The notes below the pieces were generated by a model. The model was not told the origin of the DNA, searched no databases, and saw only the letters and a program-made list of their open reading frames with translations. A program made the position numbers and the translations under genes. From Elioraea tepidiphila DSM 17972 (GTDB lineage Bacteria > Pseudomonadota > Alphaproteobacteria > Acetobacterales > Acetobacteraceae), in NCBI RefSeq assembly GCF_000378465.1, contig NZ_KB899937.1:1-57553 (forward strand): 57,553 nt of DNA, read 5' to 3'. Shown one piece after another: positions 49,332 to 57,553 of the stretch; position 1 is the stretch's first letter; every line of letters begins with the position of its first letter.

Positions 49332-52100
49332 TCAGTGCGCCTCGGCCCAGCTGCGCGCCGCCCCGGTCTCGACCACCAGCGGCACGCGGATCGTCGCCGC
49401 GCTCTCCATGGTGCGCTTCACGGTCGCGGCGGTGGCGTCGCGTTCGCCTTCGGGCACCTCGAACAGCAGCTCGTCATGCACCTGGAGCAGCAAGCGGGCA
49501 GCGAGCCCCGCCTCGGCGAGCGCGCGCGGCAGCCGCACCATGGCGCGCTTGATCACATCCGCCGCCCCGCCCTGCAGCGGCGCGTTGATCGCCTGGCGTT
49601 CGGCGAAGGCGCGCCGCGCGGGGTTCTTCTCGCCGATGCCGGGGATCCAGATGCGCCGCCCGAACGGCGTCGTGACGAAGCCCTTCATGCGCGCCTCCTC
49701 CTTCATCCGCTCCATGTAGGCGCGGATGCCGGGATAGCGCTGGAAATAGGCGTCGATATAGGCCTTCGCCTCGCCCGGCGTGATGCCGAGCTGGTTCGCC
49801 AGCCCGAAGGCCGAGATGCCGTAGATGATGCCGAAATTGATCGCCTTGGCGCGGCGGCGGGTGAGTGGGTCCATGCCCTGCATCGGCACGCCGAACACCT
49901 CGGAGGCCGTGCGCGCGTGGATGTCCTCGCCCTTCTCGAACGCCTCGCGCAGCGCCGGCACCTCCGCGACATGCGCGAGCAGCCGGAGCTCGATCTGGCT
50001 GTAATCGGCCGAGAGCAGCAGATGCCCTGCCTCCGCGACGAAGGCACGGCGGATGCGCCGCCCCTCCTCGGTGCGCACGGGGATGTTCTGGAGATTGGGG
50101 TCGGTCGAGGCGAGCCGGCCGGTGGCCGCGCCGGTCATGGCGAAGCTCGTGTGCACGCGGCCCGTGGCGGGATCGATCTGATCCACCAGCGCATCGGCAT
50201 AGGTGGATTTCAGCTTCGCGAGCTGGCGCCACTCCAGCACCTTGCCGGGCAGCGGATGCTGCGAGGCGAGTTCCTCCAGCACGCCGGCGTCGGTCGCGTA
50301 CTGGCCGGTCGCGGTCTTGGCGCGCCGCCCGCCCGGCGGGGTGAGGCCGAGCTCGTCGAACAGCACCTTGCCAAGCTGCTGCGGCGAGCCGACGGTGAAG
50401 GCGCGGCCGGCGAGCGCGTGGATCTCCTCCTCCAGCACCTTCAGCCGATCGGCGAACTCGGCCGACATCTGCCTCAGGTCGCGCGCATCGACCTTGATGC
50501 CGGCGCGCTCCATCGCCGCGATCACCGGGATCAGCCGGCGCTCGACATGCTCGTACAGCACCAGCACCTGCTCGGGCCGGAGCCGCGGCTTGAGAAGCTG
50601 CCAGAGCCGCAGCGTCACGTCGGCGTCCTCGGCGGCGTAGGCGGTGGCGCGGTCGAGCGGCACCTCGGCGAAGCTGATGCGCGCCTTGCCGGTGCCGGTG
50701 ACGGCGTCGTAGCTGATCGGTTCGTGGCCGAGATGGCGCGCCGAGAGCTGGTCCATGCCGTGCTCCCAGCGCCCGGCATCGAGGCAGAAGCTGATCAGCA
50801 TGGTGTCGTCGATCGGCCCGAGCGCGATGCCGCCGTTCTCGGCGCGCGCCAGCACGGCGAGATCGTACTTGCCGTTCTGCATCACCTTGAGGACGGACGG
50901 GTCCTCCAGCAGCGGACGAAGCAGCCCGATCGCGGTCTCGAACCGGAGCTGCTCGGGCGCGGGGTCGGCGGCGAGGTCCGCGCCGCGCCCGACATGGCGC
51001 AGCGGCACGTAGCAGGCGCGCCCCGGCGCGGTCGCGAGGCTGACGCCGACCAGCCGCGCACGCTGGGCGTCCAGGCTGTCCGTTTCGGTGTCGAAGGCGA
51101 GGAAGCCCTGCGCGTTGGCCTCGGCGATCCAGGCGCGCAGCCGCTCCGCCGTCGTCACCGTCTCGTAGGGACCGAACGCTGCCGTCTCCGGCTCGTGCTG
51201 CGCGGTCGCCTTGGCCGGCGCGGGCACCTCGGACGCCGCTCCGTCCAGCCCGAGCCGGTGCAGCGTCGAGCGGAAGTTCTGCGCCTTGAGCCACGCCGCG
51301 AGCTTGGCGCGATCGGGCTCCTTCAGCTCCAGCGCCTCGAGCGGCAGCGGCAGCGGCGCCGAGGGATCGAGCGTCACCAGCCTCTTGCTGATGCGCGCCT
51401 TCTCGGCGTGCTCGATCAGCGCCTCGCGCCGCTTCGGCTGCTTGATCGTCGCGGCCTTCGCGAGCAGCGTCTCGAGATCGCCGAACTCCTCGATCAGTTG
51501 GGCGGCGGTCTTGACGCCGATCCCCGGCACGCCGGGCACGTTGTCGGTGGAGTCGCCGGCGAGCGCCTGCACGTCGATCACCTTCTCGGGCGTCACGCCG
51601 AACTTCTCGACCACCTCGGCCGCGCCGATCGGCTTCTGCTTGATCGGGTCGAGCAGCGTCACGCCCGGGCGGATGAGCTGCATCAGGTCCTTGTCGGAGG
51701 AGACGATCGTGACCGTGCCGCCCTCGTCCGTCTCGGCCTTGGCGTAGGCCGCGATCAGATCATCCGCCTCCCACCCCTCGGCCTCGATCGCCGGCAGGTC
51801 GAAGGCATCGACCGCCTCGCGGATCAGGCCGAACTGCGGGATCAGCTCCTCGGGCGGGTCGGGGCGGTGCGCCTTGTAATCGGGGTAGATATCGTTACGG
51901 AACGTCCGCCGCCCCTTGTCGAAGATCACGGCGATGCGGTCGCCCGCGTGCTCGGCGATGAACTTCGCCAGCATGTTGGTGAAGCCGAACACCGCGTTCA
52001 CCGGCGTGCCGTCGGGGCGCGTCATCGGCGGCAGGGCGTGGAAGGCGCGGAAGATGTATCCCGACCCGTCGATCAGGATCAGGTGCGGGCGGCGGGCCAT
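49332..52100 (-). CDS. polA: DNA polymerase I
   Basis: 922 residues, the usual length. Residues 1-~290 are the 5' nuclease (LILIDGSGYIFRAFHALPP, VIFDKGRRTFRND, EADDLIAAYA). Residues ~320-500 are the 3'-5' proofreading domain and appear active: AFDTETDSLDAQ with the Asp-x-Glu pair, and YAAEDADVTLRLW with the Tyr/Asp pair. The polymerase domain holds motif A LLSADYSQIELRLLAH, motif B RRRAKAINFGIIYGIS and motif C QVHDELLFEVPE. It acts in Okazaki-fragment maturation and repair. Single gene, separated by 9 bp from the zinc-finger gene upstream. Confidence 0.97.
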   Translation of the reverse strand: MARRPHLILIDGSGYIFRAFHALPPMTRPDGTPVNAVFGFTNMLAKFIAEHAGDRIAVIFDKGRRTFRNDIYPDYKAHRPDPPEELIPQFGLIREAVDAFDLPAIEAEGWEADDLIAAYAKAETDEGGTVTIVSSDKDLMQLIRPGVTLLDPIKQKPIGAAEVVEKFGVTPEKVIDVQALAGDSTDNVPGVPGIGVKTAAQLIEEFGDLETLLAKAATIKQPKRREALIEHAEKARISKRLVTLDPSAPLPLPLEALELKEPDRAKLAAWLKAQNFRSTLHRLGLDGAASEVPAPAKATAQHEPETAAFGPYETVTTAERLRAWIAEANAQGFLAFDTETDSLDAQRARLVGVSLATAPGRACYVPLRHVGRGADLAADPAPEQLRFETAIGLLRPLLEDPSVLKVMQNGKYDLAVLARAENGGIALGPIDDTMLISFCLDAGRWEHGMDQLSARHLGHEPISYDAVTGTGKARISFAEVPLDRATAYAAEDADVTLRLWQLLKPRLRPEQVLVLYEHVERRLIPVIAAMERAGIKVDARDLRQMSAEFADRLKVLEEEIHALAGRAFTVGSPQQLGKVLFDELGLTPPGGRRAKTATGQYATDAGVLEELASQHPLPGKVLEWRQLAKLKSTYADALVDQIDPATGRVHTSFAMTGAATGRLASTDPNLQNIPVRTEEGRRIRRAFVAEAGHLLLSADYSQIELRLLAHVAEVPALREAFEKGEDIHARTASEVFGVPMQGMDPLTRRRAKAINFGIIYGISAFGLANQLGITPGEAKAYIDAYFQRYPGIRAYMERMKEEARMKGFVTTPFGRRIWIPGIGEKNPARRAFAERQAINAPLQGGAADVIKRAMVRLPRALAEAGLAARLLLQVHDELLFEVPEGERDATAATVKRTMESAATIRVPLVVETGAARSWAEAH

Positions 52101-52109
52101 GCGCGCGGC

Positions 52110-52301
52110 TCAGGCCGCCTTCGCGCCCTTGAGGACAAAGAGCCGCGAGCAGTAGGGGCACATCACCCGCCCCTCCACCAATGTCAGGAACACGCGCGGA
52201 TGGCCGAGCGCACCGCCATTGCCGTCGCACGCGACCGTGGTTTCGTCGGTCTCGATGATCTCGGTAGGCTCCGGCGCCTTGGGGGCGGATGGGGCGGACA
52301 T
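52110..52301 (-). CDS. zf-CHCC zinc-finger mini-protein
   Basis: 63 residues from ATG 52301, preceded by CAGGAAG. The sequence has the CHCC zinc ligand set: VACDGNGGALGHPRVF (Cys and His) then VMCPYCSRLFVL (Cys pair). This is the fold of NDUFS6-type proteins associated with respiratory complex I; the bacterial role as a complex I accessory or assembly factor is an inference from homology. It lies upstream of polA on the same strand. Confidence 0.88.
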   Translation of the reverse strand: MSAPSAPKAPEPTEIIETDETTVACDGNGGALGHPRVFLTLVEGRVMCPYCSRLFVLKGAKAA

Positions 52302-52330
52302 CGCACTTCCTGTCGGGGTTCGGGGCGCGG

Positions 52331-53404
<1,074 letters not shown>

Positions 53405-53526: not shown

Positions 53527-53603
53527 GCACCCATAGCTCAGCTGGATAGAGCGCCACCCTCCGAAGGTGGAGGTCACAGGTTCGAATCCTGTTGGGTGCG
53601 CCA
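53527..53603 (+). tRNA. tRNA-Arg(CCG), complete, CCA encoded
   Basis: 77 nt. Acceptor GCACCCA pairs with TGGGTGC, discriminator G, genomic CCA at 53601-53603. D-arm GCTCAGCTGGATAGAGC, anticodon arm CCACC CTCCGAA GGTGG with anticodon CCG (reads CGG), T-arm ACAGG TTCGAAT CCTGT. The acceptor and anticodon stems differ from those of the broken tRNA-Arg 171 bp upstream, while the D-arm is identical. Confidence 0.97.
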
Positions 53604-53685: not shown

Positions 53686-55404
53686 TTAGGTGTAGTTCCC
53701 AACGAGAGGTGTAGCGCCCCGGGGGCGGACAATCGTGACCCGGCTTCGGGCGCGCGTCATGCCGACACGAAGCAGACGGCGGCTCCGCTGATACGGTGGC
53801 TGCTCCCGGTTGGTGTCGAAAAACTGGGAAACAAACGCGCCCTCCACAAGCAGCACGCCGTCGAACTCCTTGCCCTTGGCCTTGTGGATCGTCATGAGGA
53901 CGCAACCCTGCGGATCGCGGTCGGCGGCAAGCAGGCGTTCCCGGTCGAGGATGCGCTTCACAAGGTCTGATGCGCCCGCATAATTTCCCTGGGACAGCCA
54001 CAGCTCGCTGAGGCTGCTTCCGAGCGCATCGGTTGCCCGGAACATCCTAACCATCCGCGCCTCGCGGAACAGCTCGTTGAGAGCCTTTATCTCTTGCAGG
54101 ACGCGCCGCGCCTTCCGCCAGTCATCAACAGGATCGCCCGCAAACGCAAACCCATCGGGGGCGAGAGCGGCCAGTTCCTTTGCCGCCTTGATCTTCGGCG
54201 CCTTGCCGCCCTCGATCGCCTCGGCGGCTTCATCGAACTTGCGGGCATTCTCACGCGCCGCGTTCGATGGCGTCTCAGCGTTCTTTATCCGGTAATAATG
54301 CGCGATCAGGCGCAGTGTATCGCTGACGGCGCGAGAGGCTTCCTTTCCGGGCCACTCAAGCAGCGAGCCGACCACCTGCGCAGCGGCGGCGGAAAGGTCC
54401 GCATCCCAGAGCACATCATGCTCGACGGGCGGCAACGTCTGGTTCTTGAACTGGTGCTCTTCGGCCAGTATCGCCGAAAGCTGGGCGACAAAGGAATTGC
54501 TCCGGCACAGCACGGCAACGCTGGGGCGTTCAATGCCGTCATCCTTCCTGAGCTTGCTGAAAGTCCAGAGCGCTGCGGCATGAACCGTTGAGGCAAATGA
54601 TTTGGCGTAGTAGTGAAGAATCGTCACCTCGGGCGCGCCGGGCAGAGGTGAGCGGTTTTCGAGAACGGCATCGGCGAACTGGCGAATCCCTGCCGTCGGA
54701 CTCCTGTGATTGTCACCGCCAAGATCAAACTCGGCGGGGCGGATCAGGTAGCGCAGGGCCTCGATCCGGCGCGGATCGACATTCTCTCGGTACTCGAATA
54801 TGCGCTGCTCGGGATCCGCGAGACAGAAAACCTCCGTGGATTCCAGGAATTTTTGAATGATGCGCCACTGGTCATCGTCGGTGTCCTGAAATTCATCGAC
54901 AATCACCAGCGGATATTTGCCGGCGTAGAGCTTCCGCACTGCCTCGCACTGCTCGAAGAGCGTGGCGATGGCGGGGGCGACCAGATCAAAACAAAAAAGC
55001 CCTTCATCCACGGAAAGCCGCAGCCGCTCGTCCTCCCAGGCGCCGTCAAACTGGGATTTCGCAAGCCGCTCGTCGCCGGGATACATGAACCGGGCCTGCC
55101 TTCCGCACAGCAGACGGCCATGCGCCGCAAGAGCCTCAAGGCAAAAGAGATGATAGGTCTTGACCTGGATGAGCCTGCGCTCCGCGGGCCGGAGAATATC
55201 TTTGCAGCGAACGAGAATCTGCCTGACGGCGGCGCGTGAAAAACTCAAAAACAGGATTTCCTGGCCCGGCAACAGTGCGCGGCAGCGTTCCTGGGCCTTG
55301 AGAAGGGCAATGGTTGTCTTTCCCGATCCGGGGCCGCCGGTGACAAGAAGGTGGCCTTGCGTGGAAATGATGTCCTTGCGCGTTTGATCGAGTTCGATCT
55401 TCAA
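53686..55404 (-). CDS. UvrD-like superfamily 1 helicase, GajB-like
   Basis: 572 residues. Walker A TGGPGSGKTT at 22-31, motif Ia LSFSRAAV, motif II VIVDEFQDTDDDQ at 167-179, motif III LADPEQRIFEYR, motif IV NHRSP, motif V TIHKAKGKEFDGV at 505-517, motif VI LRVGMTRAR. It is an SF1A DNA helicase. Its start overlaps the stop of the OLD-family nuclease gene by 4 bp. In Gabija anti-phage systems GajB is a UvrD-like protein encoded after GajA, as here; characterised GajB is ~490 residues, so this is a longer version. GC content is lower than in the chromosomal genes to the left. Confidence 0.9.
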   Translation of the reverse strand: MKIELDQTRKDIISTQGHLLVTGGPGSGKTTIALLKAQERCRALLPGQEILFLSFSRAAVRQILVRCKDILRPAERRLIQVKTYHLFCLEALAAHGRLLCGRQARFMYPGDERLAKSQFDGAWEDERLRLSVDEGLFCFDLVAPAIATLFEQCEAVRKLYAGKYPLVIVDEFQDTDDDQWRIIQKFLESTEVFCLADPEQRIFEYRENVDPRRIEALRYLIRPAEFDLGGDNHRSPTAGIRQFADAVLENRSPLPGAPEVTILHYYAKSFASTVHAAALWTFSKLRKDDGIERPSVAVLCRSNSFVAQLSAILAEEHQFKNQTLPPVEHDVLWDADLSAAAAQVVGSLLEWPGKEASRAVSDTLRLIAHYYRIKNAETPSNAARENARKFDEAAEAIEGGKAPKIKAAKELAALAPDGFAFAGDPVDDWRKARRVLQEIKALNELFREARMVRMFRATDALGSSLSELWLSQGNYAGASDLVKRILDRERLLAADRDPQGCVLMTIHKAKGKEFDGVLLVEGAFVSQFFDTNREQPPYQRSRRLLRVGMTRARSRVTIVRPRGATPLVGNYT

Positions 55405-57293
55405 GCGCCATCCCCTCTCGGTGCCGCTTGCGCCGCAGGTTCGGCTGCCTCAGCCGCCTGCTCGCCGCCAACCTCCGGCTGGGCACCGCCCGGCTGAACG
55501 GCTGGCGGCGCAAGCATATCCTGGATCTTCGCGAGAACGGTGCGGATGGTCGCGGGCAGTTCGTTCTCCGTCTTGCATTCCGCGATCAGCAAGGCCGCGT
55601 AGCCATGCGCCTCACCCTTGCGGTCTTTGAGGACCTTGCGCGCGAGGTCCTTGACGGCAGCATCATTCATGTTCGCAGCCGGCTTCGGGTGATGAGTGGG
55701 ATAATCGGGACGGTCCTTTGCGGTGTCGAGGAAGCGGCGCAGGACGGGCACCGGGACTTCCTCCGCCAGCAGGTTTTCGGCGCCCCTGTGCGGCGATTCC
55801 CAGTGATGGGTGTAATCCGCGAGCTGGGCGCTCGCCTGGGCGGAGAGCGGCGCCGCCGGTTTGTCGTAAAGGCCGAAAGTCGTCTTGCCGAGCGCCTTGA
55901 AGATCGGGCCGAACCGGGGCACGGAGCCGTCGCCGCCCGCGTCAAAGACGGTAACTCCCGCAAGATCAAAATGCGTGTAATTCTTCGGCCCGCGCGCCAG
56001 CTCCATTACGGTTGACGCCACGGGGAATATGGCGGTTTCCGTCGATCCCTCGACAACGAGAACCGCGCGGCTCAAGACCGCCTCCGCGAACTGTCTGCGC
56101 TCGGTTTTGAAGGTCTTCGCCTTGATGCCGGTCGTGTCGATGGGAGCGCCTGACAGTGCGCCGTTGTCGCCGCGATTCAGCATGACGATCTGTTCGGGTT
56201 CGAACTGCTCGATCACATACGGCGAATGCGAGGTGACGATGGTTTGCCCCATCTCGCGCAGCACGAAGCGGACGACGCGCCTTTGCGTGTGCGGCGGAAG
56301 CGCGATCTCGGGCTCCTCCATCGCGAAGATGACAGACTGCTTTTGCTTGAGCTCCGCTATAAATGTCAGAAGCGCGAAGACAAGCATATTGATGGCGCCG
56401 GTGCCCTGACGCTGGAATGGGACCAAGTGTCCGCTCTTTTTTGAGGCCACGAAGAAACGCACAACCTCGCGCAGATGCTCGCGCGTAAGGTCGGAGGCAA
56501 AGAAAGCGGTTGCGTCGCCATCGGCAGCCAGATTGACGAATTGCGCCATGCGGCTCTGAACTTCGGCTCGAATCTGCTTGAGCTGGCCGATGTCGCCGAT
56601 CGCAGGGTCAAGGCCGCGCAGGCGCTCAAGAGTATCCTGCCACATCTTGTCGAGGCCGGTTCCGCCGATGCGCAGGATGGTGTCAAGCAGCGATCCGCGT
56701 TGCAGGCTCAGGGCGCGCGAGCCCGTGCGCAGCGTTCGCAGGAACAGGAAGCCGCAAAGTCTCTTGTGCTCCCGCGTGAAGGGCCGCAGCCCGGCCCCAA
56801 GCTTCGCCTCCGCGTCATCGTCAACCTGAACCGCGTCTTGGGGATGGGCAAAAAACGTGTTGCCGATAAAGTCATCTTCGGACGGGTCATAGCGGCCAAT
56901 AAATGTGACGGGCAAGGCCCAGCAGGTCCCGGCAGCATCGCCGGCCCGCGGGCCGCCACCGGCCTCGTCGGCGAAGCAGCCCTTGGCGTCATCCCACCGG
57001 CGTAAATGGTTGTGAAAGCGCTTCTCGGCTTCGGAGGAAATGTCGAGAAGAATCGCGTCCAGGCGGATTTCGACGGGCTCTTTTTTGTCCAGATACCGGC
57101 TTTCATAAAAATCGTGCTCGTTCACCACCGGGCGCCGGTAAAGCCGCTCCGGCCCCAGCAGCAGATCAAGAGCCTCACATATTGTGGACTTGCCGGCATT
57201 GTTGCCGCCGACTAGGAGAGTATTCGGCGCGAAGTCAACGGCTCCGTTTTGGATGCCGCGAAAATTCTTCAGCGTCAGCCGCCTGACTCGCAT
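55401..57293 (-). CDS. OLD-family ATPase/Toprim nuclease, GajA-like
   Basis: I start at ATG 57293, preceded by AAGGGGG (630 residues). The ABC-type ATPase has MRVRRLTLKNFRGI, Walker A GGNNAGKST at 29-37, a signature-like FQRQGTGAIN at 293-302, Walker B IFAMEEPEI at 322-330 and H-loop TSHSPYV at 354-360. The Toprim domain follows: VLVVEGSTETAIF with Glu residues at ~415 and 419, DAGGDGSVPRF, LYDKP with Asp 477, and KDRKGEAHGYA with a candidate catalytic Lys. The last ~35 residues are Ala/Pro-rich and unlike GajA. Together with the coupled helicase this gives the Gabija gene pair. Confidence 0.9.
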   Translation of the reverse strand: MRVRRLTLKNFRGIQNGAVDFAPNTLLVGGNNAGKSTICEALDLLLGPERLYRRPVVNEHDFYESRYLDKKEPVEIRLDAILLDISSEAEKRFHNHLRRWDDAKGCFADEAGGGPRAGDAAGTCWALPVTFIGRYDPSEDDFIGNTFFAHPQDAVQVDDDAEAKLGAGLRPFTREHKRLCGFLFLRTLRTGSRALSLQRGSLLDTILRIGGTGLDKMWQDTLERLRGLDPAIGDIGQLKQIRAEVQSRMAQFVNLAADGDATAFFASDLTREHLREVVRFFVASKKSGHLVPFQRQGTGAINMLVFALLTFIAELKQKQSVIFAMEEPEIALPPHTQRRVVRFVLREMGQTIVTSHSPYVIEQFEPEQIVMLNRGDNGALSGAPIDTTGIKAKTFKTERRQFAEAVLSRAVLVVEGSTETAIFPVASTVMELARGPKNYTHFDLAGVTVFDAGGDGSVPRFGPIFKALGKTTFGLYDKPAAPLSAQASAQLADYTHHWESPHRGAENLLAEEVPVPVLRRFLDTAKDRPDYPTHHPKPAANMNDAAVKDLARKVLKDRKGEAHGYAALLIAECKTENELPATIRTVLAKIQDMLAPPAVQPGGAQPEVGGEQAAEAAEPAAQAAPRGDGA

Positions 57294-57401: not shown

Positions 57402-57553
57402 TGAACCGCTCCGGTTTTGCTGGAGGCTGTTTGGTTTGAGTCACGCGGCCAGTTTCTGGTCGTCAAGCATGGCGTAGTAGCGTTCCTCGGCTTCGGCTGG
57501 CGGGATATTGCCGATGGGCTCCAGCAGCCGGCGATGGTTGAACCAGTCGACCC
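57402..57553 (-). mobile_element. IS3-family insertion sequence end with transposase C-terminus (5' end outside window)
   Basis: The minus strand encodes the last 36 residues of an OrfB transposase at 57551-57441: VDWFNHRRLLEPIGNIPP, then EERYYAMLDDQKLAA and TGA. This is the conserved C-terminal block of IS3-family DDE transposases. Between the stop and the Gabija-like operon, TGAACCGCTCCGGTTTTGCT at 57402-57421 looks like the terminal inverted repeat, so the IS edge lies near 57402, about 109 bp upstream of the nuclease start. Target duplication cannot be checked as the other end is outside the window. Confidence 0.85.

Follow-up and report, generated by a model that had tools for sequence, protein, structure and literature searches.

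A probable divergent Gabija-type anti-phage operon at the edge of a putative island in a tRNA-Arg gene of Elioraea tepidiphila DSM 17972

The window analysed here is a stretch of 57,553 nucleotides from Elioraea tepidiphila DSM 17972 (NCBI RefSeq assembly GCF_000378465.1, contig NZ_KB899937.1), and it constitutes the whole of contig C28 of that assembly (G000 in our numbering). Close to its right end, on the reverse strand, lie two overlapping genes, gajA and gajB. They very probably form a complete operon of the Gabija anti-phage type that belongs to a divergent lineage and arrived with an island inserted in a tRNA-Arg gene. Its features are given below; residue counts here and in the following sections cover 76 relatives plus the window for GajA (77 lineage members) and 70 relatives plus the window for the helicase (71).

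55401..57293, minus strand: gajA, OLD-type ATP-binding cassette (ABC) ATPase and Toprim nuclease, 630 residues, ATG start (PADLOC and Pfam)
53686..55404, minus strand: gajB, UvrD-like superfamily 1 (SF1) helicase, 572 residues, TTG start (PADLOC and Pfam)
55401..55404, minus strand: TTGA overlap of the gajA stop and the gajB start (sequence)
55312..55338, minus strand: gajB Walker A, GGPGSGKTT, whose key residues show little or no variation across 71 aligned helicases
54883..54897, minus strand: gajB Walker B, DEFQD, with D, E, Q and D in 71/71
55404..55475, minus strand: C-terminal tail of GajA (residues 607-630), rich in Ala, Glu and Pro and of low model confidence (predicted local distance difference test, pLDDT, <50)

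The gene pair and its conservation

A preliminary description of this DNA had recognized adjacent OLD/Toprim and UvrD-like genes for proteins of 630 and 572 residues, and the open reading frames and Pfam domains agree with it (AAA_15 at E 7.6e-27 and OLD-like_TOPRIM at E 1.5e-7 on the gajA product; UvrD-helicase at E 5.8e-26 on the gajB product). The overlap it had read as ATGA is in fact TTGA, the helicase starting with TTG, and a purine-rich AGAGGGG is seen by eye directly 5' of this start. Its Gabija call is borne out by a PADLOC search, in which the GajA model PDLC00086 (600 positions) scores 786 bits and covers residues 1-607 of the gajA product and the GajB model PDLC00104 (574 positions) scores 657 bits and covers residues 3-567 of the gajB product; the next-best models reach 132 and 413 bits, respectively. 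In NCBIfam neither window protein exceeds any family cut-off, and the structure-known Bacillus GajA and GajB give only partial sequence matches. Scanning the genome collection once yielded 286 confirmed relatives, the best 80 of which were kept (39-76% identity). A GajB homologue lies 3' of gajA in 79 of these 80, mostly with short gaps or overlaps, and in the remaining one (L075) the contig stops within gajA; a chance adjacency of the two genes is ruled out by this shared order. Because the PADLOC matches run nearly end to end and the pairing is kept in 79/80 relatives, the pair is, by gene content and profile, a Gabija operon from a clade already modelled by PADLOC. The lineage alignments show the Walker A motifs of both proteins, the EEPE of GajA and the DE.QD of GajB to be invariant. 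The copies of some relatives look interrupted; in L009, L071 and L082, for example, the helicase match is split in two pieces, which may reflect decay or sequencing error.

A housekeeping UvrD, PcrA or Rep identity of the helicase was considered and rejected, in keeping with the preliminary description: its scores fall far under the respective cut-offs (71.9 of 911.2 bits for PcrA and 61.1 of 1144 bits for UvrD), and in the GajB tree its lineage is set apart from 14 housekeeping UvrD rows with a support of 100/99. The host UvrD is encoded elsewhere in the genome, as a 755-residue frame on contig C14.

The same description had called both proteins enlarged and suggested a divergent subtype. They are indeed longer than the Bacillus proteins (about 578 and 494 residues), but not unusual for their own lineage, in which GajA measures 547-643 residues (median 613, n=76) and GajB 497-634 residues (median 574, n=71; fragments excluded in both cases), close to the lengths of the two models. 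The Ala/Pro-rich tail of the nuclease is present as described; among the 77 lineage members the part beyond residue 600 ranges from 2 to 45 residues and its composition also varies, and because of this variability and the low model confidence at residues 607-630 no special role is assigned to it. Length and tail were thus discarded as subtype marks, both being ordinary within the lineage, and the divergence is to be sought in the altered Toprim site and the very long branches treated below.

The Toprim active site of GajA

BpOLD, the class 2 OLD protein taken here as reference for the active site, allows the catalytic positions of GajA to be named as follows.

56037..56051, minus strand: E415..E419 (BpOLD E400..E404); E415 in 77/77, position 419 Glu in 69 and Asp in 8
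55857..55865, minus strand: D477-K-P479, the DxD motif without its second Asp; D477 in 77/77, position 479 acidic in 0/77
55776..55784, minus strand: G504-A-E506 (BpOLD T506-x-E508); E506 in 77/77, position 504 Gly in 67/77
55617..55619, minus strand: K559 (catalytic K562 of BpOLD, by alignment spacing); Lys in 76/77

The lineage members carry P (45), Q (15), K (10), M (3), L (2) or A (2) at position 479; the middle position 478 is acidic in 3 of the 77, and position 504 is Thr in one. The register of the motif is given by a profile alignment with TsOLD, the class 1 OLD protein of Thermus scotoductus (PDB 6P74), which sets D477 opposite the first Asp of D-E-D, and by the GajA model, in which the strand before D477 comprises residues 471-476. 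For comparison, a set of 38 other OLD proteins was assembled from 60 loci (L117-L146 and L153-L182), which yielded 48 open reading frames by a motif filter, 39 of them distinct, locus L181 then being removed as a lineage member; 24 of the 38 stem from a score-ranked Pfam Toprim search, which leans to canonical DxD motifs, and 14 from the PADLOC GajA profile. In this set the second DxD position is Asp in 35 and Glu in 3 proteins, and the position equivalent to 504 is Asp in 15, Thr in 13, Ser in 4 and Gly in one, Thr thus not being universal.

In BpOLD, E400, D455 and E508 are reported as direct metal ligands and D457, E404 and T506 as acting via waters; replacing one residue at a time by alanine made no visible difference, and triple changes abolished linear-DNA cleavage with some nicking left (PMC6755086). 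Since E415, D477 and E506, the equivalents of the direct ligands, are kept, the nuclease of GajA is predicted from its residues to be active but altered. It may perhaps be tuned toward nicking over processive degradation, a suggestion we hold with somewhat more doubt than belief. Window GajA resembles BpOLD in having an adjacent helicase, the criterion of that class, and in keeping the equivalents of E400, E404, D455, E508 and K562, and it differs in having P479 for D457 and G504 for T506; on account of these two residues it is not filed as a canonical class 2 OLD protein by its active site. For Bacillus GajA both residues of the motif are described, as D432 and D434, so that its DxD is complete (PMC10781630). 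A single Asp at the DxD position together with an active nuclease is also reported for Cran1, an archaeal OLD ATPase (PMC12796447), in which the first DxD position is changed (to Leu) whereas in window GajA it is the second; Cran1 is reported to have a cell-cycle role and, it appears, none in defence against viruses. Among the matches listed by our literature search, none described a GajA lineage lacking the second DxD Asp, and none reported an experiment on this PADLOC-modelled clade.

Proposed mechanism, trees and competing explanations

Gabija is characterized by a 4:4 complex of GajA and GajB and by phage protection that depends on both genes. The window operon shares with the Gabija system of Bacillus cereus VD045 (PDB 8SM3) an ABC ATPase and Toprim gene followed by a UvrD-like helicase gene, with Walker A and DExQD motifs in the helicase, and both proteins give partial sequence and fold matches to that system; the window operon differs in that the sequence similarity is local only, the proteins are longer and the second Asp of DxD is absent. 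By analogy with Bacillus Gabija, we propose that gajA and gajB are probably expressed from one transcript, that GajA would form the core of a GajA-GajB complex, that its ATPase domain would gate the Toprim domain, and that the complex would attack phage DNA at free ends or in nucleotide-depleted cells, GajB being a superfamily 1A helicase; the operon would thereby serve in defence. Two triggers offered for other Gabija members, the sensing of nucleotides (PMC8136825) and the targeting of DNA that RecBCD has not bound (PMC12407980), could either of them apply here. A broader idea, which we consider unlikely, is that a Gabija-like lineage spread across several bacterial phyla has a one-Asp Toprim domain that is mainly a nickase, with the helicase opening the nicks, and was perhaps paired independently of canonical Gabija.

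Several observations weigh against a Gabija assignment. Two active-site positions (479 and 504) differ from those of characterized Gabija, and in P2 OLD killing is reported to be abolished by all listed mutations, the second Asp among them (PMC7049728). A GajA profile built from 70 sequences scores TsOLD at 71 bits and Bacillus GajA at 64 bits, and the single-chain GajA model (pLDDT 85.7) matches both equally, with a template modelling (TM) score of about 0.5 and a large root-mean-square deviation. The single-chain GajB model (pLDDT 90.6) finds UvrD as its top match (TM about 0.6) and GajB first at rank 29 (TM 0.35); the alignments behind these structure and profile comparisons had 70 and 55 rows. 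Finally, the lineage does not join other OLD-helicase pairs in either tree.

These trees, which were built without the Bacillus GajA and GajB sequences, recover the lineage as one group both for GajA (57 rows, 19 of the lineage; support 100/100; branch of 2.1 changes per site) and for GajB (41 rows, 18 of the lineage; support 100/99; branch of 2.34 changes per site). Their deep order is poorly supported, the program warning of long branches meeting, and the neighbours of the lineage in the GajA tree are long-branched OLD rows labelled as stand-alone, where the label depends on a motif search for a helicase up to 900 bp downstream and is incomplete. The OLD proteins for which a helicase was detected are not gathered in a single clade, so the trees speak neither for nor against one origin shared by all such pairs. 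In a rival history, the OLD nuclease and the UvrD-like helicase of this lineage would have been paired independently of canonical Gabija and converged on the same PADLOC name. The very long branches leading to the lineage in both trees, the scatter of the other helicase-paired OLD proteins, the separation of the lineage helicase from other GajB-like helicases and the equal nearness of TsOLD and GajA would all fit such a history; it is nevertheless improbable in our judgement, as the deep order is weak and carries the long-branch warning, the helicase labels are incomplete, and the PADLOC models of both genes come from the same two families.

The altered Toprim domain could alternatively have ceased to be a nuclease and left GajA as a DNA-binding sensor or a recruiter for the helicase. 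The loss of the second Asp of DxD in all 77 members, read together with the P2 OLD mutations (PMC7049728), speaks for this, but the invariance of E415, D477 and E506 and the presence of K559 in 76/77 are not expected of a dead site, and BpOLD tolerates single changes in vitro (PMC6755086), which leaves this idea very little credence. The separation of the nuclease from stand-alone OLD proteins, on which the preliminary description had staked its call, is less sharp than that of the helicase from housekeeping enzymes: GajA is as near to class 1 TsOLD as to Bacillus GajA, and its tree neighbours are labelled as stand-alone. TsOLD differs from window GajA in being a stand-alone gene for a shorter protein with a complete DxD (PMC7049728), and gajA is not the lone gene without a partner helicase by which class 1 is defined. 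A stand-alone class 1 OLD gene merely next to an unrelated housekeeping helicase is barely conceivable, for although TsOLD leads the profile matches and shares first place among the fold matches, the ordered pair in 79/80 relatives contradicts it, the genome has its own UvrD on contig C14, and in the GajB tree the helicase of the window stands apart from the housekeeping enzymes. A divergent Gabija-type operon thus remains the explanation that we prefer.

The island in the tRNA-Arg gene and its significance

The surroundings of the operon suggest how it may have arrived. G+C content drops from about 0.70-0.73 in the surroundings to 0.63 across the operon, and the following features lie around it.

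53356..53399, plus strand: interrupted host tRNA-Arg(CCG), 5' part; intact in relatives, the 3' part being on contig C32 of the same assembly
53388..53399, plus strand: 12-bp attachment-type core CTCCGAAGGCAG, also at 282-293 of contig C32 (sequence match)
53527..53603, plus strand: complete tRNA-Arg(CCG) within the island (ARAGORN), the gajB stop being 82 bp away
57402..57553, minus strand: one end of a repeat classed as an insertion sequence, inside which the contig stops; recognized by repetition, its boundary visible in two of the copies

The host tRNA-Arg(CCG) is broken after position 53399, its other half starting at position 282 of contig C32, and the 12-bp core sits in the anticodon region. 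An intact tRNA-Arg(CCG) stands beside the same hydrolase-type gene in 7 of 8 loci examined (20 fetched), these seven comprising every one of the six genomes of the genus plus a further family member. The tRNA within the island is the sole perfect match of the tRNA-Arg(CCG) pattern in the assembly; with up to two mismatches allowed, the pattern additionally finds just the broken half and one tRNA of another anticodon, so that the island apparently carries the only intact copy. As for the operon, a close homologue was found in 0 of 99 other related genomes, 13 of which gave weak partial matches (best 34.8 bits, against 1428 bits for the window's own gene). Because of the insertion in the tRNA gene and the lack of a close homologue in these 99 genomes, we infer that the operon was acquired on a mobile island, at the edge of which it now lies. 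No integrase is seen between the tRNA half (53399) and the contig end.

The end of the repeated element is 108 bp upstream of gajA and may affect its expression. Elsewhere in the genome it is matched 11 more times, two of these at 97-99% identity over the full 152 bp, with copies on contigs C4, C19, C24, C34 and C50, and it is this repetition that led us to label it an insertion sequence; it looks IS3-like by eye only, Pfam giving nothing in its 36-residue frame. At the other island end (positions 1-250 of contig C32; locus L152) there is seemingly the end of another frame, transposase-like by eye, and Pfam likewise finds nothing in the 82-residue frame at the start of that contig. The host genes adjacent to the island encode DNA polymerase I (49332-52100, minus strand) and an alpha/beta hydrolase (52289-53365, plus strand).

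Ten proteins flanking the pair were scanned in six relatives, and in three of these, in support of a defence role, restriction enzymes adjoin gajA on its upstream side: a methylase with a BsuBI/PstI-type enzyme in L010, which also has an ABC-3C protein downstream, and a ResIII/RE_endonuc protein in L009 and L038. A HipA-like protein is near the pair in L005, the neighbours in L003 are unremarkable genes of metabolism and transport, and in L008 none of the scanned neighbours is a clear defence gene. Four of the 80 relatives have a tRNA gene within 400 bp of the pair (L004 Asp, L023 Phe, L027 Met and L030 Phe), a hint that tRNA sites may serve as landing places for the lineage.

Few anti-phage systems are commoner than Gabija, and the mechanistic work considered here was done with proteins from Bacillus, Ligilactobacillus and Pseudomonas aeruginosa PA14. 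Natural GajA proteins lacking the second DxD Asp, as in this lineage, would offer a test of whether Gabija defence needs that residue, and of whether it is nicking or processive degradation that protects. An island that breaks the host tRNA-Arg gene and yet supplies a whole copy of it would, moreover, tie the host to the island.

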